Source of the DNA: a virus
Direction: 5' to 3' (one strand)
Virus record (IMG/VR): IMGVR_UViG_3300024433_000071
Location: 1 to 21,593 of that record
Length of the DNA stretch: 21,593 nt
This document shows positions 7,812 through 21,593 of this stretch, in pieces (positions within the stretch are counted from its first letter, which is position 1; each line of letters opens with the position of its first letter). Below the pieces are notes generated by a model, which worked only from the letters and a program-made list of their open reading frames with translations, made no database searches and was not told the origin of the DNA. The position numbers and the translations under genes are program-made.

Positions 7812-9632
7812 ATGGCTGCTTCTCTAACTGATATTATTCGCGCTGGTGCGGGTGGGCCTGAAGTAAAGTCAGGAATAGCTGCTGTTGAGGCTGGAGGCAT
7901 GTTTGCTCCCGGCAGGCTTGACCAGCTTAGAGCTGCTGCTGGGTTACAGCCCCAAGGTGACATTCGGCAGGCTACCGCAGAGTCTCTGACTAGCGCGGCA
8001 GAAGAAACTTATGTTGACCCTTCAGAAACTCCACTTGTGCAAGATTTGTCTGCCCTTTTACAGGGAATAAAAAGCAGGCAGGCGCAAACTAGCGCAAACC
8101 TACAGGCAATTGATTTACGAGACTCAGACGACCTCGGCTCTGCTCCTACAGCACCAAAAACAATTACAGAACAATTGAGTGATTTGTCTCAAGAGTTAGG
8201 CGCGGCTGGCCCAGATGGAGCTCCTGGTGCCGTTGTTAAGCCTGAAGGCGATTTAGGTGCTGTTGGTCCTGATGGTGCGCCCGACACAACCACTGGAGCT
8301 TCGACCACCACAGACGACATAACCACCACCACCACTACAGATACCACTACAGAAACCACTCAGGAAGGTGCCGAAGGCGGGTCTACGGAGGCGTACAATC
8401 CCTACGGCGCTTTGTTGGAAAAAGCTATGGCTGATGTTACCGCTTTGCGCGGTGAGGACCCAAACAAAAAATCTAGAGAAGATTACATGAAGGAATTTGC
8501 CGAAGCCACTGGTGTAAAAATTGATGGCGAGCCGGACAAATCACACGCTCTTATGGCCTTTGGCTTGGCTCTTATGCAGAACAAAGCAGGCAAAGGCTTT
8601 AATGTAAGCAACATGCTTGGCGCAATTGGTGAAGCTGGCGAGAAGGCCATGCCTGCATTCCAGAAGGCTAAAGAACAAGCTCGCGCAGAGCGTATCGCGG
8701 CTGGTAAGTACGCTCTTGGTGAGGTTAAGGCAGCAGACAAGCAAAGAATTGCTCAACTTAGCGCGGCTCAAGAGCGTGTCACTGACTTAATGACAAAGAC
8801 TCAAGATTATGTTGGTAAGCAGCTTTTGGCTCAACAAAATCATGGGCTTGAAATGGAAAAGCTGCGTATTGAAAAGCAAGCCGACAAAGAAATAAAAGAA
8901 ATAGAGTCTGGCGGCAAAAGATTTGAGGTAATGGGCCTTGGTACATACACGCCACTATCCTCGATGCCAAATATTAAAATCAGCGAGGGAATTAGAAAAA
9001 CTGATGGTAAAGAAGTATTAACAAAGCCATTAAAAGATGTTGAGATGTTAAGTAAAGGATATGCAGATGTACTTGATGGCATATCTTCTATTGACAAAAT
9101 TTCTACTCTAATAAATGAAGCCGCAAATGCAAGTAAAGCAGGCGGCGTAACTGGTCAGAAGCTGTTTGAATTCATTGACGGGAGAATGAAGGCTTTAGGA
9201 TTTAAAGAGGGTCTTGGAGTTGGAGTAACAGTGGACGGTAAAAAGCTCGGCCCCTTGGCAGAAGCAGATGCCATTAGAAAAAGGCTTGTGTTTCAGTATA
9301 AAAGATTTCTTACTCAAGAAACTGGCAATGGTATATCTAACCAAGATATTAAAAATCTTGATGCCGCTATTGGTGATGTAAACTTCTTTACTAACCCGCA
9401 AGAAGCGTTGGTAAAGCTAAGAGAAACAAGAAAGCTGTTTGAATCTTCCAAAGACGCATTAGAACGTCAGCTTGTTAGATTTGGCAACAAAGACCTCTAC
9501 TTAGCCCCATCTCAGTTTGACGAGGTTCAGGAAAAGATAGGTCAGGCCGCTCTGTCTGGCATTGGCATGGGAAGAGAAGGCCTTAATGTTTCGGAAAACG
9601 ATGACGGCATAACAGTAATAAAGCTTTCGTAA
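7812..9632 (+). CDS. putative internal virion protein with collagen-like and Thr-rich linker
   Basis: A 606-residue protein with AAGGAG spaced well before ATG 7812. The order is: an Ala/Gly-rich N-terminal region (1-125); a short collagen-like duplication, GAAGPDGAPGA and GAVGPDGAP (about 130-157); a threonine-rich stretch (about 159-183, up to six Thr in a row); then a long helical section. Residues about 285-365 (Lys/Glu/Ala/Gln heptads such as EQARAERIAAGK and EKLRIEKQADKEIKEIE) look like a coiled coil. The rest is mixed helical and ends in DDGITVIKLS. No catalytic motif is visible. Together with the next gene it is probably part of the DNA-ejection apparatus. The Thr/Pro/Gly linker suggests a flexible hinge between two helical domains. 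Confidence 0.68.
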   Translation: MAASLTDIIRAGAGGPEVKSGIAAVEAGGMFAPGRLDQLRAAAGLQPQGDIRQATAESLTSAAEETYVDPSETPLVQDLSALLQGIKSRQAQTSANLQAIDLRDSDDLGSAPTAPKTITEQLSDLSQELGAAGPDGAPGAVVKPEGDLGAVGPDGAPDTTTGASTTTDDITTTTTTDTTTETTQEGAEGGSTEAYNPYGALLEKAMADVTALRGEDPNKKSREDYMKEFAEATGVKIDGEPDKSHALMAFGLALMQNKAGKGFNVSNMLGAIGEAGEKAMPAFQKAKEQARAERIAAGKYALGEVKAADKQRIAQLSAAQERVTDLMTKTQDYVGKQLLAQQNHGLEMEKLRIEKQADKEIKEIESGGKRFEVMGLGTYTPLSSMPNIKISEGIRKTDGKEVLTKPLKDVEMLSKGYADVLDGISSIDKISTLINEAANASKAGGVTGQKLFEFIDGRMKALGFKEGLGVGVTVDGKKLGPLAEADAIRKRLVFQYKRFLTQETGNGISNQDIKNLDAAIGDVNFFTNPQEALVKLRETRKLFESSKDALERQLVRFGNKDLYLAPSQFDEVQEKIGQAALSGIGMGREGLNVSENDDGITVIKLS

Positions 9633-13057: not shown

Positions 13058-13229
13058 TGCAACCACAGGCCCCGCGCCAATGAAAAAACACTGCCGCCGT
13101 TGCCCACGTTGTAGTGAGCCACTAAAGACAGTATATGTGCATGGTCACACACAATGCGTCAATTGTGATTGCATCATAGATGATTGCTGCCAAGGCGAAA
13201 CCTGTCAGGCCGCTCCATCAGCATCATAA
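13041..13229 (+). CDS. small zinc-ribbon protein
   Basis: A 62-residue cysteine-rich protein. C21-x2-C24, fourteen residues, then C39-x2-C42 forms a zinc ribbon; extra cysteines (C18, C44, C49, C50, C55) and the HGH around 34-36 may add a second site. The VHGHTQCxxC and DDCCQGE pattern is one I recognise from small marine phage genes of unknown role. ATG 13041 lies 17 bases inside the lysozyme gene; an in-frame ATG at 13080 would give a tighter 49-residue version starting just before the cysteines. Its 3' end overlaps the convergent leftward gene by 25 bases. The role may be protein or nucleic-acid binding. Confidence 0.65.
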   Translation: MIPKVSATTGPAPMKKHCRRCPRCSEPLKTVYVHGHTQCVNCDCIIDDCCQGETCQAAPSAS

Positions 13230-13426
13230 TCACAACGCCAGCTTTTAGCTTCATAAGGAAATTTATGGTCGCTAAAAACATTGACGCTAAATTTTGACAT
13301 TTCAACTGTACGCGCTTTGCATTCCGATAGAGAATTATACGGCCCCCAATTGTCTCTTAACTCAAAACAATGATTACCGTAGCCGCTACCGACAACAGCG
13401 CATACAACAATAACTGCTGTATACAT
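13205..13426 (-). CDS. small secreted or membrane-anchored Cys protein
   Basis: A 73-residue leftward protein. A short hydrophobic N-terminus (YTAVIVVCAVVGSGYG) looks like a signal peptide or anchor and is followed by a small domain with C20, C36 and C65, aromatic residues (FELRDNWGPYNS) and a charged end. The layout 'signal, C-F/Y-E/Q-L...GPY-S...C...W-C' is familiar from small phage and bacterial periplasmic proteins. Translation is supported by GGAG five bases before the ATG, located in the last codons of the upstream leftward gene (stop two bases away). It might act in the envelope during lysis or superinfection, but no function is assigned. Its end overlaps the convergent zinc-ribbon gene. 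Confidence 0.6.
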   Translation of the reverse strand: MYTAVIVVCAVVGSGYGNHCFELRDNWGPYNSLSECKARTVEMSKFSVNVFSDHKFPYEAKSWRCDYDADGAA

Positions 13427-13428
13427 AA

Positions 13429-13614
13429 CTACTCCAATTCTACAACAATCTCCATCTCACTGTGTCTTGGTGTCAGCACCTCCAGCTTGCATACAGGGCA
13501 AACCATAAAATCCTCTTCAAGACCGTCAGATTTAAATTGCATTTCTGTTTCACACTTGGGGCACAACCCATAAGACATGAGCCGCGCCATTTTTCCGTCA
13601 CCTTCTTGTATCAT
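13429..13614 (-). CDS. small leftward zinc-ribbon protein
   Basis: A 61-residue protein with CPKC (residues 18-21) and CPVC (39-42), a textbook two-knuckle zinc ribbon, followed by an acidic end (EMEIVVELE). The start has AGGGAGA six bases upstream on the minus strand; an internal ATG (13590) also has an AAGGTGA and would trim eight residues. It is the first gene of a two-gene leftward operon and lies directly below a TTGACA-containing promoter candidate. Such small zinc ribbons often bind RNA polymerase, nucleic acid or other proteins. The exact role is unknown. Confidence 0.65.
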   Translation of the reverse strand: MIQEGDGKMARLMSYGLCPKCETEMQFKSDGLEEDFMVCPVCKLEVLTPRHSEMEIVVELE

Positions 13615-13710: not shown

Positions 13711-14133
13711 ATGTTAAATGCTTTCGAGGCTGGCAAGTTGGGCGAGCATATATGTATGGTTCGCTTGATGAAGCTTGGCTACTCTTGCCAAATAGTCAAC
13801 CTAGATACGGTTGATGTAATTATTAATTGGCAAGATGTTTTTCTGCGCGTTCAAGTTAAATCCAGCATTTTAAAGGGCAGAGGCGGAACGCAAGCCGCGC
13901 ACATGGGGTATCAGTTCGCTACATCTCATGGCGGCAAGAAAAAGCCACTAACAAAACAACAATGCGATATAATAGCCTTTGTTGCAGTAGAGCCAGAGCG
14001 CGTTTTGTTTAAACCAGTAGAGTGCCTAAAAGGTCAGGTGACAAAGCGTATATCGCCTGCAAAATTTATTAAAGATGATTTGGAGCAGCGGTCTTTGCAA
14101 AATTGCTTAGACCGTATTTTTTTGTCCAACTGA
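13711..14133 (+). CDS. PD-(D/E)XK endonuclease-like protein
   Basis: A 140-residue protein with the order of a small PD-(D/E)XK nuclease: GKLGEH supplies E12, TVDVII supplies D35, and RVQVKSS supplies Q48-V-K50, the Q variant of the E/QxK metal-binding motif. The rest (SILKGRGG, then CDIIAFVAVE) continues the alternating alpha/beta core as in archaeal resolvase-like and group I intron-type PDDEXK enzymes. Probable role: cutting branched or foreign DNA, or repair. GGGGGGAAG precedes the ATG. It is transcribed away from the leftward small-gene pair, and its last 27 bases overlap the convergent regulator gene. Which DNA it cuts cannot be told from sequence. Confidence 0.72.
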   Translation: MLNAFEAGKLGEHICMVRLMKLGYSCQIVNLDTVDVIINWQDVFLRVQVKSSILKGRGGTQAAHMGYQFATSHGGKKKPLTKQQCDIIAFVAVEPERVLFKPVECLKGQVTKRISPAKFIKDDLEQRSLQNCLDRIFLSN

Positions 14134-14301
14134 GCCAATTCCCAGCGAACCAATTGAATCACCGTACTTTTCCTTGTAAGCTTCAGATACAAGCATACCA
14201 ATCTGTTGACGTATGTTACGGTGTTCATCTTCACAAAGCTTTTTCAGCTTGTTATAGGTTCTCATGTCAATTCCGACAGTTCTATGATTTCCTGATGCCA
14301 C
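14107..14301 (-). CDS. ribbon-helix-helix transcription regulator
   Basis: A 64-residue leftward protein. NHRTVGIDMRTYNKLKKLCEDE followed by RNIRQQIGMLVSEAYKEKYG fits an Arc/CopG ribbon-helix-helix: a short basic beta strand (HRTVGI), helix one, a turn, and helix two ending in Tyr. I chose GTG 14301 because GGAGG is placed five bases before it; upstream TTG codons would cover that site. The C-terminal tail (SIGSLGIGSVGQKNTV) is flexible. RHH dimers bind short direct or inverted repeats. A perfect tandem 10-bp repeat lies about 20 bases upstream, over the start of the divergent nuclease gene, suggesting autoregulation and control of that neighbour. This is the only likely repressor in the window. 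Confidence 0.72.
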   Translation of the reverse strand: MASGNHRTVGIDMRTYNKLKKLCEDEHRNIRQQIGMLVSEAYKEKYGDSIGSLGIGSVGQKNTV

Positions 14302-14321
14302 AAAAGCCTCCAACAAAAAGG

Positions 14322-14341
14322 GACATATAATGACATATAAT
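14322..14341. promoter_or_regulatory. tandem 10-bp direct repeat, candidate RHH operator
   Basis: GACATATAAT occurs twice in perfect tandem (14322-14331 and 14332-14341). The repeat covers the start codon of the DUF1064 gene (ATG 14330-14332) and lies just upstream of the divergent RHH gene. Ten-base spacing puts both copies on the same face of the helix, as expected for cooperative binding of ribbon-helix-helix dimers. The second copy also codes for MTYN, so it is constrained by both DNA and protein. Binding is inferred. Confidence 0.5.
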
Positions 14342-14698
14342 AAAGGTTTTTATCAGAAACGCAATAAGTTCGGCGCGAAGAAAACCGAATTTATGGGCAT
14401 GAAGTTTGATAGCAAATGGGAGGCAGAGCGGTATGGGCAGCTCTGGAAGATGCAAGAGAACGGCGAAATACGCGACCTAGATAGACAGGTGCGGTTTAAC
14501 ATGGTCATTGATGGGCAGAAGATTTGCGCGTACATAGCTGACTATACATATTATAAGCCGAACAAAGACGGTAAAGATGAATTTATAGTCGAAGATGCCA
14601 AGGGCGTGGAGACAGATATCTTCAAATTAAAGAAGAAGTTAATGAAGGCTTTGCACGGCATAGAAATAAAGATATCGAAAAAAAATCAAAAAAATTAA
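14330..14698 (+). CDS. DUF1064-family PD-(D/E)XK nuclease
   Basis: A 122-residue protein matching the DUF1064 phage family. FDSKWEAERYGQLWKMQENGEI supplies E31 in the first motif. YIADYTY supplies D71 and VEDAKG supplies D89-x-K91, giving a full PD-(D/E)XK-like active site. The helical end (FKLKKKLMKALHGIEIKI) is typical. The family occurs in phage replication clusters and is thought to be a structure-specific or Holliday-junction-type nuclease. AAGGGA lies six bases before ATG 14330. Its first codons overlap the tandem-repeat operator candidate. The last codons and the following bases are A-tract-rich (14678-14703), which also shapes the promoter candidate of the next operon. Confidence 0.83.
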   Translation: MTYNKGFYQKRNKFGAKKTEFMGMKFDSKWEAERYGQLWKMQENGEIRDLDRQVRFNMVIDGQKICAYIADYTYYKPNKDGKDEFIVEDAKGVETDIFKLKKKLMKALHGIEIKISKKNQKN

Positions 14699-14792: not shown

Positions 14793-15236
14793 ATGACCAA
14801 TTCAGACGTATCGTCTGTGTCCTCCGCATCATTGGCTGAATTAACCATGCTCAAGAAAGAGCTGGACCAGCTTATTGTGGAGTCACAGGAAAAAGTAAAG
14901 GTTATCAAGAATGAGCTTGAGAACCGCTATCTAGGCAGAGCGCAAGACACTTTGCGTCAAAACGGAAAAGACTTTGGCAGCGTAACCATTGAAGACGCTG
15001 GTTATAAGCTAAAGGTCAATCTTCGCAAGCGCGTGGAGTGGGATGAAGGTAGGCTTCTAAATATCTTAAATGGTATGGATGAAGATACTGCTCGTCACTA
15101 CGTTTCTGTCAAATACACAATCCCAGAAGCTAAGTATAATAATGCTCCGCCTGAAATTCAGGCGCGGCTTAGCGATGCGCGTACTGTGCATTTGCAGGGT
15201 ACAAGCATTGATGTTGAGGGAGATGATGATGCTTAA
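14793..15236 (+). CDS. small helical protein opening the recombination operon
   Basis: A 147-residue protein. A helical N-terminal half (SLAELTMLKKELDQLIVESQEKVKVIKNELENRYLGR, about 13-50, probably coiled coil) is followed by a compact mixed region (TIEDAGYKLKVNLRKRVEWDEGRL, then YVSVKYTIPEAKYNNAPPEI) and an acidic end (DVEGDDDA). Proteins of this layout stand just before Sak4-like ATPases in other phage maps and have no assigned activity. AAAGGAGGG is ideally placed before ATG 14793, one of the strongest ribosome sites here. The coding end overlaps the next start by eight bases. A regulatory or recombination-accessory role would fit. Confidence 0.72.
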   Translation: MTNSDVSSVSSASLAELTMLKKELDQLIVESQEKVKVIKNELENRYLGRAQDTLRQNGKDFGSVTIEDAGYKLKVNLRKRVEWDEGRLLNILNGMDEDTARHYVSVKYTIPEAKYNNAPPEIQARLSDARTVHLQGTSIDVEGDDDA

Positions 15237-18810: not shown

Positions 18811-19043
18811 AGGCCTTGGAGAAAAGCGATACACTTACAAACGCCGCTAAGATGTTTAGCGAGTTGGGGTGGGGCAAAAGGCTTTGCGACCTTAAAGAAG
18901 AAGAAGTATTAGGTATGGTCGCGTATTTTCAGAAAATGAAGGAAATAAGAGATGAGTTTACAGAGCAGGGGCTTCTTGAATTTGAACAGAGTATCACCAG
19001 TTCTGACGCCACGGACGACCTCAACGACCCCATTCCATTCTGA
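18771..19043 (+). CDS. unknown small protein overlapping its neighbours
   Basis: A 90-residue protein without a recognised family. ATG 18771 has GGAGGG about nine bases upstream. The sequence is helical (TLTNAAKMFSELGWGKRL, then EEEVLGMVAYFQKMKEIRDEF) and ends in DDLNDPIPF, a short acidic-aromatic tip like the C-terminal interaction tails of SSB-type proteins, though far too short to be an SSB itself. It overlaps the upstream gene by 40 bases and the downstream exonuclease by about 92 in a different frame, an unusually long overlap. An accessory role with the exonuclease is suggested by this coupling. Confidence 0.58.
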   Translation: MQHNNSRRSDGTLEALEKSDTLTNAAKMFSELGWGKRLCDLKEEEVLGMVAYFQKMKEIRDEFTEQGLLEFEQSITSSDATDDLNDPIPF

Positions 19044-19749
19044 TGCTATAGAGCTTATCGCCTACAATATAGACAAAGCTATTTGCGATAAAAATGATGA
19101 GCAGCCAAGAAGAAAATACTTAGGCGGCTCATCACTTGGTAGCGCGTGTTCTAGGCAAGTCCAGTATAGATATATGCAAGTCGAGCCAGATGAGGATAAA
19201 GCCTTTCCAGCGCGTACATTGCGTATATTCGATATGGGGCACTTCATTGAGGACTTGATTGCTGGCTATCTGAGGGCTGCTGGCTTCGAGCTTAAGACGC
19301 ACGACTCACAAGGTAAGCAGTTTGGGTTCGCGGTAGCTGACGAACAGATAAAAGGGCACATTGATGGCGTCATAACTGGCGGACCAGTTCCAATGCACTA
19401 CCCTTTTCTATGGGAGTGTAAGTCAGCTAACAGTAAAAAGTTCAGTGAATTTGTTCGGAAAGGTGTGGCGGAAGCAAACCCTGTTTACGCCGCGCAAGTG
19501 GCATTGTATCAGGCATATATGGATTTAACAGAAAATCCGGCCTTGTTTACTGTGATGAATAAAGATACAAGTGAGATTTACTACGAGCTAATTCCTTTCA
19601 ATAAAGTGTTAGCTCAAAACACAAGTGATAAGGGCGTAGAAATATTGAAGGCTACAAAAGCGGGGGAAATGCTGCCGCGTATTGCAGCAAATTCAGATTA
19701 CTTTGCTTGCAAATGGTGTGAGTTTCGTGAAACATGTTGGTCAAAATAA
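18952..19749 (+). CDS. Cas4/RecB-like exonuclease with iron-sulfur cysteines
   Basis: A 265-residue PD-(D/E)XK exonuclease. MGHFIEDL (95-102) gives the GxxxE of motif I, GHIDGVI (135-141) gives D138, WECKSA (154-159) gives E155-x-K157, and QVALY (182-186) is the RecB-family QxxxY motif. C66 in GSACSRQ together with C253-x2-C256-x5-C262 at the C-terminus forms the four-cysteine 4Fe-4S signature of Cas4/AddB nucleases. Expected role: processing double-strand ends to give ssDNA for the Sak4-like protein. ATG 18952 has AAGGA eight bases upstream and lies inside the previous gene; homology-like sequence begins clearly only after about residue 28, so a later TTG start (18976 or 18982) is possible. 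Confidence 0.85.
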   Translation: MSLQSRGFLNLNRVSPVLTPRTTSTTPFHSDAIELIAYNIDKAICDKNDEQPRRKYLGGSSLGSACSRQVQYRYMQVEPDEDKAFPARTLRIFDMGHFIEDLIAGYLRAAGFELKTHDSQGKQFGFAVADEQIKGHIDGVITGGPVPMHYPFLWECKSANSKKFSEFVRKGVAEANPVYAAQVALYQAYMDLTENPALFTVMNKDTSEIYYELIPFNKVLAQNTSDKGVEILKATKAGEMLPRIAANSDYFACKWCEFRETCWSK

Positions 19750-19787
19750 GAAAGAGGCCGCCAGTTAATACCTGAGCGACCCCTTTC
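19750..19787 (+). other. hairpin between exonuclease and primase genes
   Basis: Immediately after the exonuclease stop, GAAAGaGG (19750-19757) pairs with CCcCTTTC (19780-19787, one A-C mismatch), then CGC/GCG and CAG/CTG pair inside, closing a 7-base loop TTAATAC. The stem has about 13 pairs with one bulge and two mismatches. No U-tract follows on the plus strand. It may be a processing or stabilising stem, or an attenuator for the primase gene. Confidence 0.4.
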
Positions 19788-19841
19788 AAAGTGTGAAACG
19801 AAATCAGAAAAGGAAACAATCGGACTTCAGGATACAATATA

Positions 19842-21593
19842 ATGAGTGTTATAAGGTTTGACAATACTAAATCTGGTACGGCACATGATTTAGTCGAAAG
19901 AATTAGCCGTGAGGTTCCACGCTCAGTACAGGTGGAAATGCTGCTTGAAACATATCCGAATGGCAGGGTTCGGGGCAGCGACTTCTTTATCGGGTCGTTG
20001 GCTGGCGAGGCTGGCGAGAGCCTAAAGATTGATATCAACACCAACAGTCCGCACTTTATGCGTGGGCAAGACTTCAATGGCGGGGAAGGTGTAGGGGGAA
20101 TTGTTAAGATTCTGATGGCAGCTCGCGGTATGCGCCTGCCTGAAATCAAAGAATTGTTCGGCTCTTATCTTTCTACAGACGCGCCTAGCACGCCGCCCCC
20201 ACCAAATTGGCGCACTGAAAACGGGATAAATCTTAACAAGATACCAGTTGGCAACGGTGTACAGCAACAGGGCAATAGTACACCGCAGGCAGAGCCTACA
20301 GCCGAGAAGGTTCGCATTGATATTGATACGCCGCATAACGGGCAGTGGGATTACATTTCTCGTGACGGTGAGGTATTAGTTTCTGTGCGCCGTTATGATA
20401 TTCAAGGCAAGAAGGAATTCCGTCCGTGGATTCCAGGGGTTTCATATCCAAAAGCGCCAGAAGTCCGGCCTCTGTATAATATCCCGAACATTTTAAATGA
20501 GCATAGAGTTGTATGGGTTGAGGGCGAGAAATGTGCTCAAGCCCTGATTGAAGCAGGCATACCAGCTACATGCACATTGGGCGGGGCTGGCGCGTTGACA
20601 AGAAAAAACGCAGATAAGTTCGACTTCACGCCGTTGCGCGGGAAGGAGCTTGTTATCTGGCCTGACAATGATGACGCCGGACGCAGGCTCGCTGAAATTG
20701 TTCGGGAAGTAGCGCTGGAATCTGATGCGGATAGTGTAACCATATTGCAACCTCCGTCTGGTAAACCTCCCAAATGGGATGCCGCAGATGCTATAGAAGA
20801 AAGTTTTGACGTTGAAAAATTCATTACAAACGGGGCTGGTAACACTCGCCGTTCTATCAACCTTCTTAATGATAGTCTCCTTATCTCACGCTTTAGTGGT
20901 GCTGCGCCTGTCCAGCAGTTTCTTGTAGACGGCACGTTCCCACTAGGCGTTCCTATTATCTTTGCAGCAGCAGGCGACAGTGGTAAGGGCATGATGACCC
21001 TAGACCTAGCCATGAAGGTTGCAGCAGGCAAGCCAGTTCAAAACTCTTTCGGGGGAATTGTTCGGGAGTTCGGGGACGTTGTTATCTTCACAGCAGAAGA
21101 TGATGAGTCCGAGATGCATAGACGTATCGAGCGCCTTGATGAAGCAGGCTTGCGCTTTGACTACCCGAACAAATTGCATGTAGTTCCGCTGCCAAACGTG
21201 GGCGGTGTGTTCCCTATCTTGCGAGAGAATATGGGCGACTACAGCGAGACAGATGAGTTCAAGAAAATATACGAACAAATGCTACAGCTCGACAATCTCA
21301 AGCTTATCGTGTTTGACCCGCTCGCATCATTCGTACATGCAGACGTAAACTCAGACCCTGCGGCAGGCGCGGCGTTAACGGGCTTGTTGGCTAGAGTTGC
21401 CACAGAAACGGGGGCGGCTGTTATTGTATGTCACCATATGACGAAGGTACAGGGCGACAAGGTTGTGTCTAAACCAGAAGAGGCACGCAATCTTATTCGG
21501 GGTACGTCCGCGCTTGTTGATGGCGTGCGTTGTGCGTTTGCTATCTGGCAGTTAGATGAGAAAACAGCACGCGGTAGATGTAAAGACCTAGGC
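19842..21593 (+). CDS. TOPRIM primase/RecA-fold helicase (partial, runs off right end)
   Basis: The frame stays open for 584 codons to the window edge. ATG 19842 follows AGGA at about eight bases. The N-terminus (about 60-110, IDINTNSPHFMRGQDFNGGEG) resembles the region after a primase zinc domain but has no cysteine set. A TOPRIM domain follows: VEGEKCAQ (226-233) and WPDNDDAG (273-280), the metal-binding DxD. An AAA_25/RepA-type helicase comes next: Walker A FAAAGDSGKGMM (374-385), Walker B LIVFDPLASF, CHHMTK with the usual His pair, and LIRGTSALVDGVR. It would prime and unwind DNA in phage replication. The final Gly of the P-loop (GKG, not GKT/S) is a variant also seen in other phage ATPases of this type. 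Confidence 0.88.
   Translation, partial: MSVIRFDNTKSGTAHDLVERISREVPRSVQVEMLLETYPNGRVRGSDFFIGSLAGEAGESLKIDINTNSPHFMRGQDFNGGEGVGGIVKILMAARGMRLPEIKELFGSYLSTDAPSTPPPPNWRTENGINLNKIPVGNGVQQQGNSTPQAEPTAEKVRIDIDTPHNGQWDYISRDGEVLVSVRRYDIQGKKEFRPWIPGVSYPKAPEVRPLYNIPNILNEHRVVWVEGEKCAQALIEAGIPATCTLGGAGALTRKNADKFDFTPLRGKELVIWPDNDDAGRRLAEIVREVALESDADSVTILQPPSGKPPKWDAADAIEESFDVEKFITNGAGNTRRSINLLNDSLLISRFSGAAPVQQFLVDGTFPLGVPIIFAAAGDSGKGMMTLDLAMKVAAGKPVQNSFGGIVREFGDVVIFTAEDDESEMHRRIERLDEAGLRFDYPNKLHVVPLPNVGGVFPILRENMGDYSETDEFKKIYEQMLQLDNLKLIVFDPLASFVHADVNSDPAAGAALTGLLARVATETGAAVIVCHHMTKVQGDKVVSKPEEARNLIRGTSALVDGVRCAFAIWQLDEKTARGRCKDLG

Follow-up and report, generated by a model that had tools for sequence, protein, structure and literature searches.

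In an uncultivated virus record (IMGVR_UViG_3300024433_000071, positions 1 to 21,593; this whole stretch of 21,593 bases is called the window here) a small leftward gene and a rightward nuclease gene of the DUF1064 family have overlapping start regions, and a perfect tandem repeat lies across the start of the nuclease gene. We consider it likely that the leftward gene encodes an Arc-like ribbon-helix-helix (RHH) autorepressor, and that this protein binds phased boxes where its own gene and the replication-module operon on the other side begin. The two genes are paired in every relative that holds both, the 10-bp phasing of the boxes is conserved, and codons 2–4 of the nuclease gene are constrained at the DNA level.

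The tandem repeat and its setting

The sequence GACATATAAT is present in two adjacent copies, head to tail, with 10 bp from start to start, and the pair spans the DUF1064 start codon (Table 1). As an earlier note on this DNA had claimed, the copies are exact and one helical turn apart, and the repeat also encodes MTYN, since copy 2 forms codons 1–4 of the DUF1064 gene (ATG ACA TAT AAT). The same note placed the repeat in the gap between the two genes. This is correct for most of copy 1, but the DUF1064 gene begins with the final two bases of that copy and takes in all of copy 2, so that half of the repeat is coding. Position 14301, given as the left edge of the repeat region, is not part of the repeat; it is the GTG start of the leftward gene. 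The start codons of the two genes are separated by 28 bases.

The GACATATAAT pair is the sole perfect two-copy tandem of period 10 in the window. Dinucleotide shuffles of the window give an expectation of 0.017 perfect tandems at period 10 and of 0.15 over periods 9–30. Two perfect 9-bp tandems were seen in or near open reading frames, at 8886–8903 (AAAGAAATA) and at 20000–20018 (GGCTGGCGA, with an extra base).

A second operator was also sought in the window. The pattern TATATGKCATTATATGK, with up to three mismatches allowed, was found at one site only. A looser box-pair pattern has two extra sites, and by our own estimate about two are expected from base composition. Just within the first gene (ATG at 88), the minus strand of the stretch 97–111 (TATGTTTGTGTATGT) carries the box TATGT twice, at a distance of 10 bp. 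This box pair is a possible second site, of a kind whose number in the window is about at chance level.

Table 1. Features around the start regions of the RHH and DUF1064 genes, in window positions
Feature	Position	Strand	Remarks
RHH regulator gene, 64 aa, likely Arc-like	14107–14301	−	GTG start at 14301; conserved family A1–A3
Putative rightward promoter TTCTCA-18-TATGAT	14259–14288	+	inside RHH gene; 9 of 12; shared with closest relatives; weak
RHH-gene ribosome-binding site GGAGG (CCTCC on + strand)	14307–14311	−	from sequence
Possible degenerate third box TTTGT	14313–14317	−	10 bp beyond; two mismatches to box-pair pattern over 14313–14327; weak
DUF1064 ribosome-binding site AAGGGA	14318–14323	+	from sequence
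Repeat copy 1, GACATATAAT	14322–14331	+	exact; holds box TATGT (14327–14323) on RHH-sense strand
DUF1064 gene, PD-(D/E)XK nuclease, phage Holliday-junction-resolvase-like	14330–14698	+	opens replication/recombination block
Repeat copy 2, GACATATAAT	14332–14341	+	exact; holds box TATGT (14337–14333) on RHH-sense strand
Putative −10 TATTAT of leftward RHH promoter	14337–14342	−	overlaps repeat copy 2; fixed place in most relatives
Putative −35 TTGCGT of leftward RHH promoter	14359–14364	−	within DUF1064 codons

The two genes and their relatives

Single-sequence searches with the 64-aa protein of the window gave no match, and no Pfam RHH model matched it at cut-off. Among 30 members of its family, 20 match the PHROG Arc-like repressor family phrog_3180, weakly (best E 9.8e-4), and six match the C-terminal RHH domain of MatP (MatP_C; best E 0.0039); the top PDB sequence match is Arc (E 0.053). 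As a control, the family profile was compared with 28 small P22 proteins. Arc came first and Mnt second, which are P22's own RHH repressors, and their alignment to the profile covers the helix-turn-helix part. A strand K-S-V-x-[IV]-D and a turn E-[DH]-R-N are invariant or nearly so in the family, and so is a C-terminal tail GIGSxxQKN in the clade of the window. These scores are weak when taken singly and consistent when taken jointly. The protein is likely, not proven, to be an RHH protein, and the ranking of Arc and Mnt together with the weak phrog_3180 matches supports the earlier assignment of the leftward gene as an RHH regulator. The AlphaFold model of the monomer has no helix in residues 1–12 and one long helix at 13–46 (pLDDT 74.8, pTM 0.39), and a Foldseek search of this model against the PDB gave no match. 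That the monomer model fails to resolve the fold may be expected for a fold which exists only as a dimer. Because the monomer model is uninformative, the fold assignment rests on sequence.

The rightward gene is a clear member of its family, with 51.8 bits against Pfam PF06356 (cut-off 24.7, E 1.3e-13) and E 5.7e-31 against phrog_190 (Holliday junction resolvase). PMC1189080 places the DUF1064 family in the PD-(D/E)XK superfamily.

Relatives came from four scans of viral contigs, three of them RHH-based and one DUF1064-based. Together these gave slightly more than 200 loci, some contigs being fetched repeatedly. The RHH and DUF1064 genes are divergent in 208 of the 208 fetched loci that hold both, and six further loci, close to a contig end, have the RHH gene only. 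Gene order is constant across clades: a large structural gene, a rightward lysozyme gene, optional small genes, the leftward RHH gene and the rightward DUF1064 gene, followed in the rightward direction by a gene of about 145 aa (DUF7173-like in the window), a Sak4-like gene and then more genes. The late/lysis block and the DNA-metabolism block thus meet at the RHH gene. A scan of bacterial and archaeal genomes found no relative, and in the cultured-phage collection there was no DNA match and no match to the RHH family. DUF1064 alone has wide matches in cultured phages, at less than 60% identity.

We also considered a type II toxin-antitoxin module with an RHH antitoxin and rejected it. There is no co-transcribed toxin, and the neighbours of the RHH gene are either divergent (DUF1064) or convergent (the 140-aa PDDEXK gene).

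Putative promoters and a model of regulation

Most relatives have a leftward TTGNNN-16-TATTAT element (or the same with TAGAAT, TAATAT or TATAAT) in a matching position, and the G of TTG in the putative −35 comes from an invariant third base at alignment codon 11 of DUF1064. If the leftward promoter is as placed, then its −10 and the first transcribed bases of the RHH gene would lie under the boxes. A rightward TTG[T/A]A[T/C]-17-TATAAT-like element has a fixed place just before the boxes of the second clade, and the rightward element of the window (Table 1) is its putative weaker counterpart. When promoters were scored over the gap clusters, the best scores were not clearly above those of shuffles, and for this reason promoters were called from conserved position only. 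The repeat itself was tried as a sigma-70 promoter for DUF1064, with TATAAT present twice. For the window it was rejected, as there is no −35 at the right distance and the transcript would start inside the gene.

In the model that we favour, adjacent dimers of the 64-aa protein would most likely occupy the same face of the DNA, on TATG[G/T/C] boxes of the RHH-sense strand exactly 10 bp apart. In the window the two boxes are the two halves of GACATATAATGACATATAAT. They lie over the ribosome-binding site and start codon of DUF1064, and also over the −10 and transcription start of the putative leftward promoter of the regulator. Bound dimers would occlude the leftward promoter, and we hold the resulting autorepression with reasonable confidence. 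The same dimers would either block a rightward promoter or obstruct the polymerase entering DUF1064, and the nuclease and recombination genes would be damped as the regulator accumulates. Occlusion of the rightward start region of the nuclease/recombination operon is probable, if at close to an even chance. The protein–DNA contact, the promoters, the direction of regulation and its targets are inferred.

It is possible, at clearly lower probability, that the RHH protein binds the boxes but regulates itself alone. Transcripts of DUF1064 would in that case come by read-through from a late or middle promoter further upstream, and the boxes would overlap its start codon just because the gap is very short. 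Such read-through is possible because nearly all remaining genes of the window run rightward. The box pair lies exactly at −10/+1 of the putative leftward promoter, and no conserved rightward promoter was found across the window's own clade as a whole, both of which suit regulation of the RHH gene alone. What speaks for an effect on both sides is the second clade, where the promoter-like rightward element stands at a fixed position right before the boxes, and the fact that DUF1064 is always the first gene past the boundary of the DNA-metabolism block.

Constraint on the first codons of DUF1064

Across 20 lineages of the window's clade, codons 2 and 4 of DUF1064 always have the same third base (100% identity), and at codon 3 the third base is 90% identical. 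The amino acids still vary: T, P or A at codon 2, Y, R or S at codon 3, and N, F, P, S or Y at codon 4. Third-base identity has a mean of 0.52–0.53 in the DUF1064 gene and falls to 0.23 at codon 5. In neighbouring genes used as controls, the value for codons 2–4 is 0.45 (DUF7173), 0.48 (a 221-aa gene) and 0.62 (lysozyme); the start of Sak4 was covered by few sequences.

In the second clade (L102/L119/L140) the DUF1064 start codon lies about 10 nt further downstream, and most of the boxes are therefore non-coding there. The exception is a phased ATG over the antisense start codon; the remaining boxes are in non-coding DNA. Conservation of third bases in one clade and non-coding boxes in the other thus indicate that the constraint acts on the DNA and not on the peptide. 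It is important to note that in the second clade the ribosome-binding site of the RHH gene itself falls within one box, and some of the box conservation in that clade thus has another cause.

A/T-rich gene starts are common, and both copies of the repeat overlap the ribosome-binding site, the start codon and codons 2–4 of DUF1064. The repeat might accordingly be a by-product of constraint on translation start, acting on an A/T-rich spacer and early codons, and not a protein-binding site. We find this unlikely. Other gene starts of the same phages are without such third-base conservation, and a constraint on translation start predicts neither a 10-bp period nor its persistence where the boxes lie upstream of a later DUF1064 start.

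Ten-base phasing across relatives

The exact repeat is ruled out as the conserved signal, as two copies of GACATATAAT are found in none but the nearest relatives. What is conserved instead is a spacing: short ATG[G/T/C] boxes on the RHH-sense strand are phased at 10 bp, and there are two of them in the window's clade and two to four in the second clade. On that strand the pattern of the window's clade is TATATG[G/T]-CAT-TATATG[G/T] (e.g. L032, L013 and L112), and the second clade (L102, L119, L140 and L188) has ATGG, ATGC or ATGGG boxes, mostly in 10-bp steps.

Self-similarity at different lags was measured alignment-free on 14 divergent gap clusters. At lag 10 it is 6.29 of 8, compared with 4.47 in dinucleotide shuffles (z 6.8, 0 of 300), for clusters that are related and therefore not fully independent. 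None of 234 offset windows of the same genomes reaches the lag-10 value, their maximum being 5.71. Lags 8, 9, 11 and 12 are at or below chance. Lag 20 is slightly raised, to a value which 8 of the 234 offset windows also reach. When lags 6–15 are compared, about three quarters of the 62 unique gaps score best at lag 10.

The earlier note had proposed an operator, and as a check the co-conservation of repeat and RHH gene. With respect to phasing the proposal is supported, as 10-bp-phased repeats are present in the gaps of most lineages. It is not supported for the exact GACATATAAT pair: the boxes of relatives are mostly degenerate or different (TATATGG/TATATGT, ATGGG), and sometimes there are three or four of them. 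Relatives with the RHH gene and no repeat, which the note had named as evidence against an operator, do occur. Two clusters (L096/L097 and L058) keep the gene pair and have no clear boxes, and L042, L076, L126 and L128 belong here in part, their boxes being degenerate; in L048 the spacing is different or disturbed. Apart from L096/L097 and L058, repeated boxes over the regulator's own start region are conserved with the gene.

The boxes may be asked to serve something other than the RHH protein. Helically spaced direct repeats beside a replication block resemble iterons, and RHH proteins can act as partition factors. The boxes could then bind, for example, a host regulator, or the module boundary could hold a replication or partition site with the boxes as its iteron-like repeats. 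This seems improbable for boxes that travel with the RHH gene in most lineages, number two to four only and overlap the start signals of both genes, at a site with no consistent GC-skew reversal. Finally, a functionless slippage duplication that arose by chance in this lineage would agree with perfect 10-mer identity being confined to the closest relatives, but it is very improbable, given the 0.017 such tandems expected in the window and a 10-bp period that is found in most of the divergent lineages with differing box sequences, and the comparative data appear largely to refute it.

Comparison with known systems

Binding of phased boxes by an RHH autorepressor would have several parallels. 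The immI region of P22 also combines a small RHH-type protein with divergent start regions, and the helix region of Arc aligns with the 64-aa protein family. P22 operators sit on overlapping divergent promoters: in the annotation of NC_002371 the arc promoter is at 14793–14821 (+) and the mnt promoter at 14798–14826 (−), with the Arc site at 14798–14818 and the Mnt site at 14822–14844. In P22, however, arc and mnt are both RHH genes and are joined by an antirepressor, whereas in the window a single RHH gene stands opposite a nuclease/replication operon. The Arc site does not consist of an exact 10-bp direct repeat, and the RHH family described here is without members in the cultured-phage collection.

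The viral RHH protein F55 of SSV1 binds to tandem direct repeats where its own gene and early genes start, and sites of viral RHH proteins often overlap the transcription start site (PMC5569661). F55, SvtR and AvtR are virus-encoded RHH proteins like the one proposed here, and the F55 operator likewise consists of tandem repeats. F55 differs in belonging to an archaeal virus, in its repeat (ATAGATAG) and in having several operators per genome, while in the window one site stands out. In the RelBE system, RelB binds as RHH dimers along a single face of the DNA; the stretches that it protects are 9–10 bp apart, and the core is [A/T]TGT[A/C]A (PMC2812701). One-face binding at this separation is a precedent for our model. 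The RelB sites are palindromic hexads in a toxin-antitoxin operon, in contrast to an RHH gene without a paired toxin gene.

An RHH autorepressor with a repeated operator is of a known kind. The family and the arrangement are apparently undescribed, within limited literature searches; a divergent pairing with an RHH regulator was not found in the available parts of papers that mention DUF1064. A more far-reaching idea, which we put forward tentatively and think rather doubtful, is that this undescribed RHH family works as a boundary switch in uncultivated phages of a large group. In all of them a 10-bp-phased array of two to four boxes, lying partly in the first nuclease codons, would set when the DNA-metabolism block and the late block take over from one another.

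For a small protein family with no Pfam RHH model at cut-off, these results provide a hypothesis of function together with a candidate operator that is conserved and can be mutated. The likely RHH family sits at a module boundary of apparently widespread uncultivated phages. The putative operator is a clear example of a site that constrains synonymous positions in the first codons of a neighbour gene, and equally of a start codon that has moved, between clades, around a conserved putative operator.

Other observations in the window

The RHH gene lies between two predicted PD-(D/E)XK nucleases, PDDEXK_5 (13711–14133, E 2.8e-6) and DUF1064 (14330–14698). Its 3' end overlaps the convergent 140-aa PDDEXK_5 gene by 27 bp (14107–14133). 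The tail GIGSVGQKNxV of the RHH family (14107–14142) extends past the RHH part and is possibly a partner-binding peptide. Throughout the window's clade, tail codons near the overlap (S TCA, K AAA and V GTC) do not vary, probably as a result of coding on both strands.

Small leftward open reading frames of 73 and 61 aa lie near the RHH gene (13205–13614), and the window's clade repeatedly has leftward frames of about these lengths. A match to phrog_4875, of unknown function (E 2.9e-4), was obtained with the 61-aa frame (13429–13614). Past the Cas4-like exonuclease gene (18952–19749), the stretch 19750–21593 has no clear rightward genes and holds several leftward open reading frames of 90–165 aa without a PHROG match. 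Near the other end of the window, the gene at 969–1559 matches the 2OG-Fe(II) oxygenase family phrog_61 (E 6.8e-42, C-terminal part of the profile) and also the DNA endonuclease / endonuclease V families phrog_2297 and phrog_274.
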